DNA of 64,000 nucleotides, taken from NCBI RefSeq assembly GCF_000477435.1, contig NC_022576.1:2728001-2792000 (forward strand), written 5' to 3'. Positions 5,773 through 63,328 of this stretch are shown piece after piece (positions within the stretch are counted from its first letter, which is position 1; each line of letters begins with the position of its first letter). A program made the translations under genes and the position numbers. This DNA comes from Candidatus Symbiobacter mobilis CR (GTDB lineage: Bacteria > Pseudomonadota > Gammaproteobacteria > Burkholderiales > Burkholderiaceae_C). The notes under the pieces were generated by a model. The model saw nothing but the letters and a program-made list of their open reading frames with translations, did no database searches and had not been told where the DNA came from.

Positions 5773-5881
5773 GCTGGCCGTAGCGGTGCCCATGCAATGC
5801 GCGCCGTTGTGCTACCGTGGCACGGTGGGTAGCGGGTGTTCGCCCGTGTTCGCATGTATTGATGCCCCTCCTGCCCACTAG

Positions 5882-6024
5882 GAACCTATTTCAGTAGGCA
5901 GGCGAGCCGAAGCAGTGTGCGTGGCACCGGAGCGCAGGAACCGGAATGTACTGACAGTACATGAGGATTCCGAGCACCGCCGCCGCGTGCAATGCGATGG
6001 CGCAGCCCCTACTGGAATAGGTTC
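5882..6024 (+). mobile_element. 143-bp MITE-like element, copy A
   Basis: This is one of three near-identical 143-bp copies in the window (the others are at 38242 and 62745). The ends are GAACCTATTTCAGTAGG and CCTACTGGAATAGGTTC, an imperfect terminal inverted repeat of about 17 bp. The direct repeat TAG flanks both ends (5879-5881 and 6025-6027). The centre is a perfect 8+1+8 palindrome, ATGTACTG-A-CAGTACAT, and the two halves are weakly self-complementary throughout. No transposase is encoded. The element lies in the parE-downstream gap, 71 bp upstream of the first exported-protein gene. Confidence 0.85.
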
Positions 6025-6095
6025 TAGGCGCCTCGGGTGCCAAACGCCGGGGCTTGGTCGTGTGTTCCTTGTATCACCGTAACGGAGGTGTTTCC

Positions 6096-8381
6096 ATGCG
6101 TAACGCTGTGCGTCGTTTTTTGTTGGCGGGGGCGTGTCTACCTGCATTGGCTGGCGCCGATGCGGGGGTCTCGCTGGTGGCGGGATGGAATTTGCTCGGC
6201 AATAGCAATACGGCGCCGGTTGCCGTGGCTTCTGCCTTTGGCGATGCGGACAAAGTTTGGACGGTCTGGAAGTGGAATAAGGCCCAGGGCAAATGGGCAA
6301 TGTATGCGCCGTCCTTGAGTGCGTCGGAACTGGCGGCCCATGCTGCAGAACATGGCTACGACATCCTGACCACGATCAACCCCAAAGAAGGCTTTTGGGT
6401 TCGTACCAAGGCTGGGGGAGCGTTCGATATCGGGATGCCTGCCGTACCGCCCGCGCCGGGTGCCATGGCAGGTGCTTTGCAAGCGGACGACCTGGTTGCA
6501 GGCTGGAATTTGGTTGCCAGCACCGACAACAAAAACCCCTCGCAGCTCGAAATGGGCCTGCGCAAGGCACTGCGCAACAAAGGGCAGGCCATCATCACCG
6601 CGTGGGCGTGGGACACCGCCACCGGTAGCTGGCGCATGCATGCGCCATCGCTGGAAACCCAGGGCATCGACACCTTGCGCGCACATCTCGTCCAGTACGG
6701 TTATCAGCCCTTTGCCACGGCCCCCGCACCGACTGACGGTTTCTGGCTTCGCATAGGCAACGCCGCGCCAGCCAGCGACCCCCCGGCTTCGGCGGTTGAC
6801 GCAGCCAAAGCGTTCATGTCGACGTTGCGCAGCAATGCGCGTGCGCTCGATGCCGAAGACCTGTCGCTCAAAACGGAACTCGAAGCCGTGGCAGATGACT
6901 TGCGGTTGCGCACCGTGCCGGTATCGGAATTCACCACAGACACGCTCCAACTGGTTCAGGAAGCGGCCGATTACTGGGACAACACTGTTCGCGACACTTC
7001 CGCCCCGTTCACGGCGCAGCGACGTGAGGTGAACGGACTATGGCGTTGTGGGCTGTACGCCGACGCAGCAGCCATGACGGTTGCGACCAGCCGCAACGAT
7101 GCGCGGTACCTGGCGTGTACGACGACCCCCCGCCCGGGTAGCAAAGCGTTCATCAATGCCACCGATGCCAACGGTACTTACAAGCCTTGCGATGCCGTAG
7201 GGGAAGTGTGCGGAACCGCGTGGACATTGCGGCTGCTCTTGCAGCCTGACCCCGCCGATGCCCACCACTACTTCGTGCATACCCGCACCGTGGCATCGCG
7301 CATGACGGTTGCTGCGGTAGCGTACGGCTACTACGACAACATGACATCGAAGTACATCGAAGGCGCCGATACCTGCCCCAGCGGGGAGTCATGCTGGGTC
7401 GAACCCACGGCATGGAACGAGACGCAGACGTATGCGAGCACCCCAGCCCCTGGCGTCGCGGCAACGCTGTCGCTGACTCGCGATGAAGAGGGGGCGATCG
7501 ATTCCTGGGCTTTGCGGGGAGATCTCGCACCTTCCGTGCAATTCGATATGCAGCCTTCTTTTGGCTACGACGGGGCATTGGGGCAATGGATTTACCGGCA
7601 GAACCACACTGCCGAAGTGCTGGGCGAGAAGCATGAAGTCGATCTCTCCGTTGCCTGGTTGCAGCATGACAGCACCGCACACAAACTGGCCCTGCAAGGA
7701 GATATTCGCCTGATTCGACAAGGGCAGGTCGCTTCCTGGGTGGGTTTTGCGCCGGGGTCGACCATGGAGGCTACCCCTGATGCCGCGGGGTCGTACTCCG
7801 ATTGCAGCAGCGGCCAACGGATGCATCTGATCTTGCATGCGGGGTCACCGGTCAGCACGCTGGAAGGAGGGCTGCGCATCGGCGCTTGCCAATACGACCG
7901 CTCCGGCACCGTGTACGAACCCACGCAATTTGCCTTCACCGGGAGCGTGGGGCGCAATGGAGCGCCGTTCTTCGAGGGGACGATCAGTGCCGACCACACC
8001 GGGTTGCCCTCGTTCGATGCGACGCAGGGCGCACATGCCGCCAACACCGATGTGGGCCGCGTGCGACTTGCCGGCAATGTATCGATCCCGAACCGGCCCG
8101 TGCTGTCGATGCAACTCGACATCACCGGCGCAGACAGCGGCACGCAGGGCCGTGTATGGTGGAGCGGCCAGTACGCACAAGGTACGAGCGTGGTCAACCT
8201 CAGCGGTTACGGCGACGATGCAGCGCAAGTGCTCACGCTGGAAAGCAACACGGGGGTTCGATTGGTGCTTGATTCCGCACAAACGGTGCATCCGCTGACC
8301 GTGAACGGCGTGTTGGCGGGGTACCTGAACACCGAAGACGGCACGCTGGAATACACCGACGGGAGCTACGAGCAGCATTGA
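6096..8381 (+). CDS. Unrecognised exported protein with two tandem N-terminal modules
   Basis: A 761-residue protein I do not recognise. An N-terminal signal peptide (basic MRNAVRR, hydrophobic stretch, likely cleavage near ALAGADA) predicts export. Two modules of about 85 residues follow, at residues 25-104 and 131-220. Both read VAGWNL(L/V), then a Trp-rich W-x-W segment, W-x-M-(Y/H)-APSL, and end with (E/D)GFW-(V/L)-R; this is a clear internal duplication. Residues 235-330 are helical and charged. The remaining 400 or so residues look beta-rich, with paired cysteines (for example in DTCPSGESCW). A GGAGG box at 6084-6088 sets the start at ATG 6096. It is followed after 35 bp by a second exported protein. 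A surface or periplasmic location is an inference. Confidence 0.8.
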   Translation: MRNAVRRFLLAGACLPALAGADAGVSLVAGWNLLGNSNTAPVAVASAFGDADKVWTVWKWNKAQGKWAMYAPSLSASELAAHAAEHGYDILTTINPKEGFWVRTKAGGAFDIGMPAVPPAPGAMAGALQADDLVAGWNLVASTDNKNPSQLEMGLRKALRNKGQAIITAWAWDTATGSWRMHAPSLETQGIDTLRAHLVQYGYQPFATAPAPTDGFWLRIGNAAPASDPPASAVDAAKAFMSTLRSNARALDAEDLSLKTELEAVADDLRLRTVPVSEFTTDTLQLVQEAADYWDNTVRDTSAPFTAQRREVNGLWRCGLYADAAAMTVATSRNDARYLACTTTPRPGSKAFINATDANGTYKPCDAVGEVCGTAWTLRLLLQPDPADAHHYFVHTRTVASRMTVAAVAYGYYDNMTSKYIEGADTCPSGESCWVEPTAWNETQTYASTPAPGVAATLSLTRDEEGAIDSWALRGDLAPSVQFDMQPSFGYDGALGQWIYRQNHTAEVLGEKHEVDLSVAWLQHDSTAHKLALQGDIRLIRQGQVASWVGFAPGSTMEATPDAAGSYSDCSSGQRMHLILHAGSPVSTLEGGLRIGACQYDRSGTVYEPTQFAFTGSVGRNGAPFFEGTISADHTGLPSFDATQGAHAANTDVGRVRLAGNVSIPNRPVLSMQLDITGADSGTQGRVWWSGQYAQGTSVVNLSGYGDDAAQVLTLESNTGVRLVLDSAQTVHPLTVNGVLAGYLNTEDGTLEYTDGSYEQH

Positions 8382-37132: not shown

Positions 37133-38203
37133 ATGCACATGGCAGATTCATTGCTTTGCCCTGCGGTTGGAGCGGCTTTCTGGGCGGCATCCACAGCGGC
37201 GACCGTGTGGGCAGTCCGGTTCGTTCGATCTGGGAAAGGCTTGGGACAAGACATGTCGCGCCCTGGCATGGATGCCCATGCACGCCCCCTGCTCTGGATT
37301 GGGGTATTGGCTGCCTTCGTTTTTGCAGCACAAATGTTCAACTTCACCATACCGGGTACGGGTTCGAGCGGACATGTGGTCGGCGGGGTGTTTCTCGCTT
37401 CCTTGCTCGGGCCTCATGTAGCCTTTCTGGTGTTGGCCGGAGTGCTGGCGGTACAGGCCTTTCTTTTCGCCGATGGGGGAGTGTTGGCGTTGGGGGCCAA
37501 TATCTTCAACATGGCTGTGCTCCCTTGTCTCGTAGCCTATCCCCTGTTCGAGCGGCTGGTATTCCTCCGCACGGGGCGCTGGGGTCTGGCCGGACTGGCT
37601 CTGCTGGCCTCGGTCGTGGGTTTGCAGCTCGGCGCACTGGGGGTTGTGCTGCAAACCCAGGCTTCCGGGATCGCATCCTTGCCTTTCTCTGCGTTCCTTG
37701 GCGCGATGCTGCCGATTCATCTCGCCATCGGTGGGGTGGAAGGGTTGTTGACTGCCGCGCTCGTAGCCTACCTGTGGGGCGCCAGGCCTGCATTGCTGTA
37801 TGCAGTGCCTGCTGGTTCCATCGCCACTCTGCCCTTTCCCCGGCAGTGGGTCATTGGGCTGGGTACGGCGGCATGTCTATCCGCAGGGGTACTGTCCTGG
37901 TTTGCTTCTAGCCTGCCGGACGGGCTCGAATGGTCTATCGCCACCACAGAGCGCTCCAACATGCAGGCTGCTGCGCCTTCGCCAGTGCATGAACGACTGC
38001 AAGCGTTGCAGAATCAGGTGGCTTTGTTTCCGGAGTACCGTTTTCCCGTGCGTGCCACAGTCCGGGACGAAGAGCGGTGGCCTTCCATAGATCCCTCCAC
38101 TTCGTTGGCCGGGCTAGCCGGAGGGCTGGTGACCCTGTTGCTGGCAGTGGGTGCGGGTGCGATCCTCCGTCGCCTTCCAGCACCTCGCGAGGCACAGGCA
38201 TAG
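37133..38203 (+). CDS. cbiM: CbiM-type cobalt/nickel ECF substrate component with C-terminal PDGLE part
   Basis: A 356-residue membrane protein. The N-terminus MHMADSLL is the metal-binding start of CbiM/NikM, whose His2 is a Co/Ni ligand. About seven helices follow, with the conserved IPGTGSSGHVVGG loop. From about residue 245 a CbiN-like/PDGLE part is fused (FASSLPDGLEWS, a periplasmic segment and a last helix LAGGLVTLLLAVGAG). It would import Co2+ or Ni2+ with the ATPase and coupling subunits CbiO and CbiQ, which are not present on this side: the next gene is rsmE on the other strand. No cobalamin or NiCo riboswitch pattern was seen in the 289-bp upstream gap (36844-37132). Confidence 0.87.
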   Translation: MHMADSLLCPAVGAAFWAASTAATVWAVRFVRSGKGLGQDMSRPGMDAHARPLLWIGVLAAFVFAAQMFNFTIPGTGSSGHVVGGVFLASLLGPHVAFLVLAGVLAVQAFLFADGGVLALGANIFNMAVLPCLVAYPLFERLVFLRTGRWGLAGLALLASVVGLQLGALGVVLQTQASGIASLPFSAFLGAMLPIHLAIGGVEGLLTAALVAYLWGARPALLYAVPAGSIATLPFPRQWVIGLGTAACLSAGVLSWFASSLPDGLEWSIATTERSNMQAAAPSPVHERLQALQNQVALFPEYRFPVRATVRDEERWPSIDPSTSLAGLAGGLVTLLLAVGAGAILRRLPAPREAQA

Positions 38204-38241
38204 TGCATCTGCCTGGCGCTCCCCGATTACAGTCCCGCTTA

Positions 38242-38384
38242 GAACCTATTTCGGTAGGCAGGCGAGCCGAAGCAGTGTGCGTGGCGCCGGAGCGCAGGAA
38301 CCGGAATGTACTTACAGTACATGAGGATTCCGAGCACCACCGCCGCGTGCAATGCGATGGCGCAGCCCCTACTGGAATAGGTTC
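38242..38384 (+). mobile_element. 143-bp MITE-like element, copy B
   Basis: The second copy has the same orientation as copy A and differs at only a few positions (for example one base in the central palindrome, ATGTACTTACAGTACAT). TTA is duplicated on both sides (38239-38241 and 38385-38387). It lies between the cbiM end and the rsmE stop codon, which starts only one base beyond the duplication. Confidence 0.85.
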
Positions 38385-38388
38385 TTAT

Positions 38389-39138
38389 TTATGGCGCTTC
38401 CTGGCGTAGCGTGAGGGTCACGGCGGCCAGTGCCGCCGTTTCCGCACGCAATACCCGCGTTCCCAGGCTCACCGCCAGAAAACCGCGATCCCTCGCTGCC
38501 CGCTCTTCGTCGGCATCCAGACCGCCTTCGGGGCCGCACAGCAACGTCAGTGCATCGCCCTTTGCATACGGCTGTCCGGCGTCGGGTTCCGACAAGCTCA
38601 GCAGCCAAGGAGCGCAAGCACCGAGAGGAAGCCTCCATCCTGCCAGCCAGTCTCGCAAAGGCTGGACAGGGTGGACGATGGGGATGCGATTCCCCCCGCA
38701 TTGCTCGCACGCTGCAATCGCCAGCCGCTGCCAGTGCTCTTGTCGGCCTACGGCGCGGGCACCCTCCAATCGCAGCACACTGCGCGCTGTCGTCAATGGT
38801 TGGATGCTTGCGGCGCCCAGTTCGCTGGCTTTTTCGACCAGCCAATCCATGCGGTCATTCGCAGGCATACCAATAGCCAGGTGCAGTACACGGCCAGGTT
38901 CCCGGTTCGTTGGCTGCCAAGCGCCCAACTGCACCGTGGCTCCACGGCGTTGGATGGCCGTGACTATTGCCGTGTATTCCCCATATTGCCCACTATCGTT
39001 CGGCTTGCCGTCAAACACGACGACGGAATCTCCCGGCTGCGCTCGCAATACCTGCAGGTGTCGTGCCGTATCCGGTGGCAATGCAAGCTCCGCATAGGGA
39101 TGTAGAGCCTGCGCGACATACAGGCGGGGCATCGGCAT
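38389..39138 (-). CDS. rsmE: 16S rRNA m3U1498 methyltransferase
   Basis: A 249-residue SPOUT-fold methyltransferase that modifies U1498 of 16S rRNA. The N-terminal PUA-like part (HLQVLRAQPGDSVVVFDG) is followed by the knot region with LLCGPEGGLDADEE and SLGTRVLRAETA, the SAM-binding signature. The length is normal. Two starts (39138 and 39132) are equally possible. It is 10 bp downstream of rfbC. The stop codon lies directly beside MITE copy B; the last residues (LRQEAP) may therefore not be the ancestral end. Confidence 0.94.
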   Translation of the reverse strand: MPMPRLYVAQALHPYAELALPPDTARHLQVLRAQPGDSVVVFDGKPNDSGQYGEYTAIVTAIQRRGATVQLGAWQPTNREPGRVLHLAIGMPANDRMDWLVEKASELGAASIQPLTTARSVLRLEGARAVGRQEHWQRLAIAACEQCGGNRIPIVHPVQPLRDWLAGWRLPLGACAPWLLSLSEPDAGQPYAKGDALTLLCGPEGGLDADEERAARDRGFLAVSLGTRVLRAETAALAAVTLTLRQEAP

Positions 39139-62053: not shown

Positions 62054-62284
62054 ATGAAAATTTCTGAACGAATCACTATTGACCCAAAGATATGCCACGG
62101 CAAGCCGTGCATTCGTGCGCTGCGTTATCCTGTGGAAACAGTATTGGAATGGCTTGCCAGCGGAATGGATATCCAACAAATATTGACTGATTACCCAGAT
62201 TTGGAACAGGCTGATATTTTGGCTTGCCTGGACTTTGCTGCACGCATCACGCAAGTGCATCGCTTAGAGTATTTGCAGGCATGA
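62054..62284 (+). CDS. DUF433 antitoxin-like protein
   Basis: A 76-residue protein of the DUF433 family. It begins MKISERITIDPKICHGKPCI and has the helix-turn-helix-like body VLEWLASGMDIQQILTDYPD, LACLDFAARI. DUF433 proteins are antitoxins paired with DUF5615 PIN-like toxins. The stop overlaps the toxin start by 4 bp (ATGA). It probably autoregulates its operon. Composition appears AT-richer than the surrounding genes. Confidence 0.85.
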   Translation: MKISERITIDPKICHGKPCIRALRYPVETVLEWLASGMDIQQILTDYPDLEQADILACLDFAARITQVHRLEYLQA

Positions 62285-62634
62285 AATTTCTGATCGATGC
62301 GCAATTGCCACGGCGTTTTTGTGACTGGCTTGCGCTGGCTGGCCACGATGCTCTCCACACGCTGGATTTGCCCATGGGCAATAGAACGACCGATGCAGAA
62401 ATCATCGAATTTGCTGATGGACAAGACAGGATAGTGGTAACCAAAGATGACGATTTCGTTCAATCGCATCTTGTACATGGTCAGCCCCGGCGTTTGTTAT
62501 TGGTTGCTACTGGCAATATTTCTAATCGAGAGTTGGAAATATTGATGAATAAAAACCTTTTGAATATAACGACTGCATTGGATACCAGTCATTACGTCGA
62601 GGTAGGGCGTGAGAAATTGGTGTGCCATGGATGA
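62281..62634 (+). CDS. DUF5615 PIN-like toxin
   Basis: A 117-residue protein. The N-terminus MKFLIDAQLPRRFCDWL, with D6, and the later VVTKDDDF belong to the DUF5615 group, a compact PIN-like fold that acts or is predicted to act as an RNase. The acidic residues D6, E57-like and D76-D78 fit a metal site. The ATGA overlap with the DUF433 gene supports a toxin-antitoxin pair. No gene is seen in the next 110 bp. Confidence 0.82.
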   Translation: MKFLIDAQLPRRFCDWLALAGHDALHTLDLPMGNRTTDAEIIEFADGQDRIVVTKDDDFVQSHLVHGQPRRLLLVATGNISNRELEILMNKNLLNITTALDTSHYVEVGREKLVCHG

Positions 62635-62724: not shown

Positions 62725-62744
62725 GTGCAGGCTGTTTGGGTTCA

Positions 62745-62887
62745 GAACCTATTCCAGTAGGGGCTGCGCCATCGCATTGCACGCGGCGGCGGTGCTCGGA
62801 ATCCTCATGTACCGTCAGTACATTCCGGTTCCTGCGCTCCGGCGCCACGCACACTGCTTCGGCTCGCCTGCCTACTGAAATTGGTTC
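62745..62887 (-). mobile_element. 143-bp MITE-like element, copy C
   Basis: The third copy is inverted relative to A and B. TCA is duplicated at 62742-62744 and 62888-62890. The reverse complement keeps ATGTACTGACGGTACAT at the centre, with one mismatch to the palindrome. The duplicated TCA also forms the TGA stop of the following minus-strand gene. Confidence 0.85.
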
Positions 62888-63130
62888 TCAATGCAGGCCG
62901 AAGCTGGGGCGTAACTGCGCCGCGCTGTGTCGTAACGCGGGAATCTCGGAAGCTTCGGCCTGGTGCAGCCAATAGTCTGCGTAGGCGGTATCGCTGTGCA
63001 GGCGGTTGGTATCGACCCACCAGCCGTGCCCTGCCATCAGCCATTTGAAGTCCACCTCGCGCAGCAATGCAGCGCATTCGTGCGTCGTGTGGAACGTTTC
63101 GGAACCCTGGGTGGCGGCAGTGGTGTTCAT
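62888..63130 (-). CDS. Small conserved hypothetical protein
   Basis: An 80-residue soluble protein. Residues 24-50 (LREVDFKWLMAGHGWWVD and following) are Trp-rich and resemble a small conserved hypothetical family I associate with Burkholderiales; no function is known. The longer frame up to 63277 is rejected because it crosses the predicted control region of the ribonucleotide reductase. The stop codon coincides with the target-site duplication of MITE copy C, so the C-terminus may have been cut or extended by the insertion. Confidence 0.6.
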   Translation of the reverse strand: MNTTAATQGSETFHTTHECAALLREVDFKWLMAGHGWWVDTNRLHSDTAYADYWLHQAEASEIPALRHSAAQLRPSFGLH

Positions 63131-63328
63131 GGCATGGCTCCAGGTGAAGAGGGGAGAAATTTGTCGCGATGTAGTCACTGTGTGCGTCCCCAAAAATTCC
63201 TTGATGGGGAAAAGCGGGCGAGAAACCGGCCTATTCCAGGTACTGGGATGGTGGGGATGCGCCGTGGTTCGCAGCACGCCGCTCCTACGAATACTCGGTG
63301 TTTTGCGCTATGGCGAAAGTAGCTCACT

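Follow-up and report, generated by a model that had tools for sequence, protein, structure and literature searches.

What is the 143-bp unit that occurs three times in a 64,000-nucleotide stretch of the 'Candidatus Symbiobacter mobilis' genome (the whole stretch analysed, referred to below as the window), and by what means would it move? The window covers positions 2,728,001–2,792,000 of a single contig of 2,991,840 bp. The organism is placed in the Comamonadaceae, and an excerpt of PMC4053972 gives its genome (CP004885) as 2,991,840 bp with a G+C content of 59.1%; that of the window is 60.9%. An earlier note on this DNA had described three copies of identical length, each with a terminal inverted repeat (TIR) of about 17 bp and each flanked by a different 3-bp direct repeat, and this description is borne out:

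5882–6024, plus strand: copy 1 of the unit, 143 bp; TIRs at 5882–5898 and 6008–6024; core in common with other genomes at about 5927–5981
5879–5881, strandless: target duplication TAG, left of copy 1, read from the sequence
6025–6027, strandless: target duplication TAG, right of copy 1, read from the sequence
38242–38384, plus strand: copy 2, 143 bp, between the converging genes for a CbiM-like protein (37133–38203, plus strand) and an RNA methyltransferase (38389–39138, minus strand)
38239–38241, strandless: target duplication TTA, left of copy 2, read from the sequence
38385–38387, strandless: target duplication TTA, right of copy 2, read from the sequence
62745–62887, minus strand: copy 3, inverted relative to the other two, 143 bp
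62742–62744, strandless: target duplication TCA, left of copy 3, read from the sequence
62888–62890, strandless: target duplication TCA, right of copy 3, doubling as the TGA stop of an ORF at 62888–63277 (minus strand)

The TIRs of copy 1 are identical at 16 of 17 positions, and the 17-bp end pattern, allowing up to three mismatches, occurs six times in the window against a shuffled mean of 0.03; the unit carries no transposase gene. A central 8+1+8 palindrome, ATGTACTG A CAGTACAT, had also been proposed: it is perfect in copy 1 only, and imperfect in copies 2 and 3. The long hairpin that had been considered possible is indeed predicted, as the whole unit folds into a single one with DNA parameters (−42.7 kcal/mol, z −7.4). 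As to the neighbouring genes, a 775-aa open frame without a Pfam match (6054–8381) begins 30 bp past copy 1, a DUF5615/Mut7-C PIN-like protein (62224–62634) adjoins copy 3, and the ORF at 62888–63277 that abuts copy 3 likewise gave no Pfam match.

The flanks of further copies, which the earlier note had named as the check on its reading, point the same way. At least 40 distinct places, some of them incomplete, were found genome-wide among the best 40 of 94 candidates scored; with the stretches around further end matches added, 41 near-complete and 38 complete copies were examined, besides fragments, so that no fewer than 38 complete copies are present in the genome. Of these 38, 20 lie between exact 3-bp direct repeats (2000 flank shuffles: mean 6.7, maximum 13) and 18 do not, and a 4-bp repeat flanks none of them, which bears out the reading as a mobile element that is non-autonomous and duplicates 3 bp of its target. 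This larger sample also answers the doubt whether TAG is compatible with a TNA target: TNA accounts for 17 of the 20 exact duplications (TAA 8, TTA 6, TGA 2 and TCA 1), and TAG, CTA and TAT occur once each. Of the 20 duplicated targets, 19 begin with T, 18 have A in third position and 13 are followed by G. TNA stands on both flanks of 22 of the 38 complete copies (17 equal, 5 different) and on neither flank of 4; the five copies with differing TNA flanks would fit recombination between copies. Additionally, a 73-bp copy without the central hairpin keeps TGA/TGA flanks, and so either moved without its core or lost it after insertion.

A candidate for the enzyme lies in the same genome. End matches that start with GAGCC pair 910–916 bp apart and define copies of an IS, for which ten copies were read: eight have an exact TAA or TTA duplication, and matching flanks are missing in the other two. 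In the one copy scanned, the transposase scores 254.6 bits against NF033580 (cut-off 110) and also matches PF13340 and PF01609; a search of the genome with the NF033580 profile gave nine stop-free places above 245 bits. A 3-bp TNA duplication is known for the IS1031 group of the IS5 family, and this element combines it (8/10) with an IS5-type DDE transposase. At one locus (L045, 1397–3225), IS copies of 910 and 916 bp lie head to tail with a single TAA between them.

The ends of this IS are nearly those of the 143-bp unit: the 19 terminal bases on the left agree at 94.7% (18/19; 16/17 over the 17-bp end), and 15 of 17 agree on the right. The IS ends read GAGCC, and most copies of the unit read GAACC, with one copy (L028) bearing GAGCC at both ends, like the IS. 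The search for a full IS with the same ends was thus successful, and the suggestion of an IS1031-like mobiliser from the IS5 family has a concrete counterpart in the resident 910-bp element, which is likely to be the mobiliser; that it mobilises the unit is something we infer from its matching ends, TNA duplications and transposase type. The unit resembles IS1031-like elements of the IS5 family (NF033580) in its 17-bp ends, TNA target, 3-bp duplication and the IS5_3 transposase of its partner, but it has no transposase of its own and its interior is unrelated.

It could be supposed that the unit arose from the resident IS by internal deletion, given that ends and target size are common to both; this is most improbable, as outside the 17–19 terminal bases only chance words of 7–9 bp match, and the interior occurs in other genera without these ends (see below). 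The interior does not come from the IS, and a deletion derivative was rejected on this sequence comparison. Equally improbable is that the unit belongs with the REP or REPIN elements and owes its movement to a RAYT (Y1 tyrosine transposase). The unit is palindromic and repeated, relatives carry GTAG-like tags, and the S. mobilis genome has seven Y1_Tnp matches, fragments included; against this, the exact core-hairpin pattern is absent outside the places of the unit (all 31 genome matches fall there) and neither target duplications nor long TIRs would be expected of Y1 enzymes. Two of the seven Y1_Tnp loci were read (L058 and L059, at 1544776 and 2682892), and both encode one and the same protein of ~143 aa, which we take to be IS200 TnpA-like; on the look of these two loci, a RAYT/REP origin was set aside. 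The score is the same at a third place, L060.

Short, non-coding elements with TIRs, many copies and IS-type ends are familiar from Correia/NEMIS and RUP, and the 143-bp unit resembles these MITEs in each of these respects; it differs in that its interior spans lineages under different ends and elsewhere lies one way round at stop codons. A list of bacterial MITEs is given in the part of PMC3733652 consulted, where REP/BIME repeats are described as palindromic and located near gene ends; the unit shares both properties, but has long TIRs and a target duplication, and no RAYT was found with it at the two Y1_Tnp loci read. As judged from its sequence, the 143-bp unit is a MITE: it is short and transposase-free, it has TIRs, its many dispersed copies carry 3-bp duplications and its autonomous partner, the resident IS, has nearly equal ends.

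Where, then, does the interior come from? When 60 genomes were searched with the whole unit, scoring at most the best 14 candidates per genome, it was found in S. mobilis only; in at least 16 of the 59 others, matches were confined to inner positions 20–126, mostly 46–100. A scan of named genomes for the exact core gave at least 80 loci, and the hosts among the matches listed include Comamonadaceae, Herbaspirillum, Thiobacillus, Gallionellales, Rudaea, Rhodanobacter, Methylotetracoccus and others. With even genome sampling, the exact core pattern is rare, being present in 5 of 369 Gammaproteobacteria, S. mobilis included; a plasmid collection contains two records that match part of the core.

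That the exact-core loci agree in the core is in part a product of the search, because the pattern fixes most core bases; the tags outside the pattern, the arms and the length are free of this effect. Taking the best placement in 25 positions among the matches listed, the tag GTAGCGAGCG is present at 9 or 10 of 10 positions in 62 of 79 elements, and the tag on the other side, TACTGCGC, at 7 or 8 of 8 in 63 of 79. Both inner tags could be located in 71 elements, and the remaining 8 were dropped from the comparison of arms; as the 71 include orthologous sites and elements that share a genome, not all are independent. Within one element, the 17-nt arms are identical at a mean of 12.4 of 17 positions (at least 14 in 40/71), a value reached by none of 2000 permutations, and the match fades at about 17 nt; between different elements, the mean is 5.7 of 17, and 38 of 4970 mismatched pairs reach 14 or more. 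From arm to arm, the 71 elements and the MITE measure 141–144 bp, with one of 148; as the arms were cut at 17 nt, these figures show a constant inner length. Moreover, the consensus fold has compensatory pairs of up to four types (e.g. GC 43, TA 17, CG 9 and AT 3), and a pair with both sides left free by the search pattern varies as well (GC 51, CG 21). On this comparative evidence, the interior is a ~142-bp self-complementary scaffold of Beta- and Gammaproteobacteria that lies under different 17-nt ends.

In these other genomes, the scaffold mostly has a fixed orientation in which its right end meets the stop codon of a gene. Within 45 nt of the inner tag, 59 of the 71 elements have the end of a frame of 100 or more codons on the right side and 27 on the left (random positions, 292/2760). 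With the arm boundary set at 14–18 nt from the tag, long frames (at least 100 codons) are closed by 29 of the 35 stop triplets at the right boundary, where the background is 11.5% (binomial P 5e-22 if the cases are taken as independent), and by 2 of 17 at the left; a Pfam scan of 20 of the 29 frames gave a match for every one. Copies were also collected from six genomes by means of an end that they have in common: of the 14 with a core, 13 sit exactly against the stop codon of such a frame, and this set overlaps with the 71. A cruder longest-ORF rule gave no clear bias in gene orientation: the elements divide into 28 codirectional, 13 divergent and 14 convergent cases, with 15 more lying within a listed ORF and 11 at the edge of a contig or locus, and control gaps of at least 150 bp are 67 codirectional, 36 divergent and 24 convergent. 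This rule was judged unreliable in GC-rich contigs, because it misses genes below 100 codons (e.g. groES) and calls ORFs across elements, and the frame-ending test and Pfam were preferred.

The gap between groES and groEL illustrates such a site. In a set of the best 30 loci in the genus of S. mobilis, where 49 of 60 genomes have a match, the element is full in six (L227, L239, L241, L244, L249 and L256), shortened in five (L231, L232, L233, L238 and L242) and unseen in the other 19; by our own reading, L231, L238 and L242 appear to hold arm-like remnants only. VVEK is the C-terminal end of GroES in 28 of the 30 loci, with or without the element, so this end of groES probably predates the element, the far arm being a partial inverted copy of the last codons. 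Such copying could have occurred either on insertion or later, between the hairpin arms.

A further property links the scaffold to RNA, and in the window it takes the form of one sub-threshold feature:

5923–5962, minus strand: weak match to sX9 (RF02228), 28.6 bits, below the gathering score of 44

No Rfam match in the window reaches gathering level, and the best copy elsewhere in S. mobilis scores 38; all 17 own-genome matches at E ≤0.001 fall at places of the MITE. RF02228 has a match in 23 of the 60 genomes of the genus, S. mobilis included, and lies above the gathering score in 6 of 21 relatives' loci scanned (1/5 and 5/16), where the central hairpin and the GCUCGCUACG block match the full model; the match is on the strand opposite to the core pattern, which is the sense strand of the right-end gene. 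Half of the scaffold thus resembles an already listed sRNA, the Xanthomonas sX9, but Rfam models as an sRNA only 76 nt, about half of the element. A literature text search with six 13-base core words gave nothing except one word in an unrelated protocol, and in this incomplete search no description of the element was recognised; we make no claim of novelty to the literature.

The scaffold might therefore be mainly a host RNA element of gene ends, an sX9-like sRNA or 3′ UTR, that was mobilised in S. mobilis by accident. The one-way placement at stop codons, the compensatory base pairs and the sX9 match in the sense direction of the neighbouring gene all speak for this reading, which we regard as possible and worth serious attention, if on the doubtful side; the cruder orientation count and several signs of mobility speak against it. 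TNA duplications are weakly seen at the 47 best-armed elements (6/47 at one of ten offsets; 500 shuffles: mean 1.3, maximum 5), an exact 3-bp duplication flanks 4 of the 14 core-bearing copies in the six genomes searched by shared end, and several relatives' copies have one TIR in common. Because of these duplications and the common TIR, the scaffold seems to be mobile elsewhere too. An IS with the relatives' ends was sought as well: an NF033580 search of 11 genomes gave none above the cut-off and weaker matches in three, and an end-pattern search of six genomes gave no IS-sized pair save one of 1,124 bp in G065, which consists of the outer ends of two separate 142-bp elements. In a Rhodanobacter genome (G060; L291, L293 and L297), core-less palindromes of 44–61 bp carry the ends of its 143-bp element, two of the three with exact duplications.

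The gene-end rule, moreover, is absent in S. mobilis, which also tells against a host RNA element: of 39 stop triplets that abut MITE ends, 8 belong to frames of 100 codons or more (background 14.3%, P 0.19), six at the left end and two at the right. Stop-codon targeting in this genome is therefore not claimed, although the raw number of 11 abutting stops (frames of at least 80 codons; 41 copies, 82 ends) was striking at first sight.

We consider it very probable that the MITE is moved in trans by the resident IS, and that its interior is a hairpin scaffold unrelated to the IS, found under other ends elsewhere and present here in ~40 copies. The transposase of the 910-bp IS5-family (IS1031-like) element would recognise the common 17–19-bp ends of the 143-bp unit, insert it into TNA targets and duplicate 3 bp. 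What fits this less well is that 18 of the 38 complete copies and 2 of the 10 IS copies have no matching flanks, and that the ends of most copies of the unit read GAACC and those of the IS GAGCC. The interior is a member of the wide ~142-bp hairpin family, half of it resembling the Rfam sRNA sX9, and not a deleted piece of the IS. In the S. mobilis lineage, the scaffold would have come by ends to which the resident IS responds, through acquisition or evolution, a direction of end exchange that we infer, and with these IS-compatible ends it may then have multiplied to about 40 copies.

More tentatively, and with slightly less than even confidence, we propose that the sX9-type scaffold represents a class of mobile elements of gene ends: a conserved ~142-bp hairpin with interchangeable 17-bp ends of different transposases would set one fixed end on a stop codon and leave the protein intact, at some sites (groES) with a far arm made of the inverted last codons, and in 'Ca. 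S. mobilis' it would have been captured by an IS and freed from the gene-end rule. For a transposase, the ends of a MITE are enough; that the ends vary while the inside recurs in two classes of Proteobacteria suggests that some factor besides the transposase maintains the inside. The findings further suggest that what is catalogued as an sRNA family makes up half of a mobile element, and the S. mobilis genome, by uniting the likely mobiliser with the element, makes the question testable.
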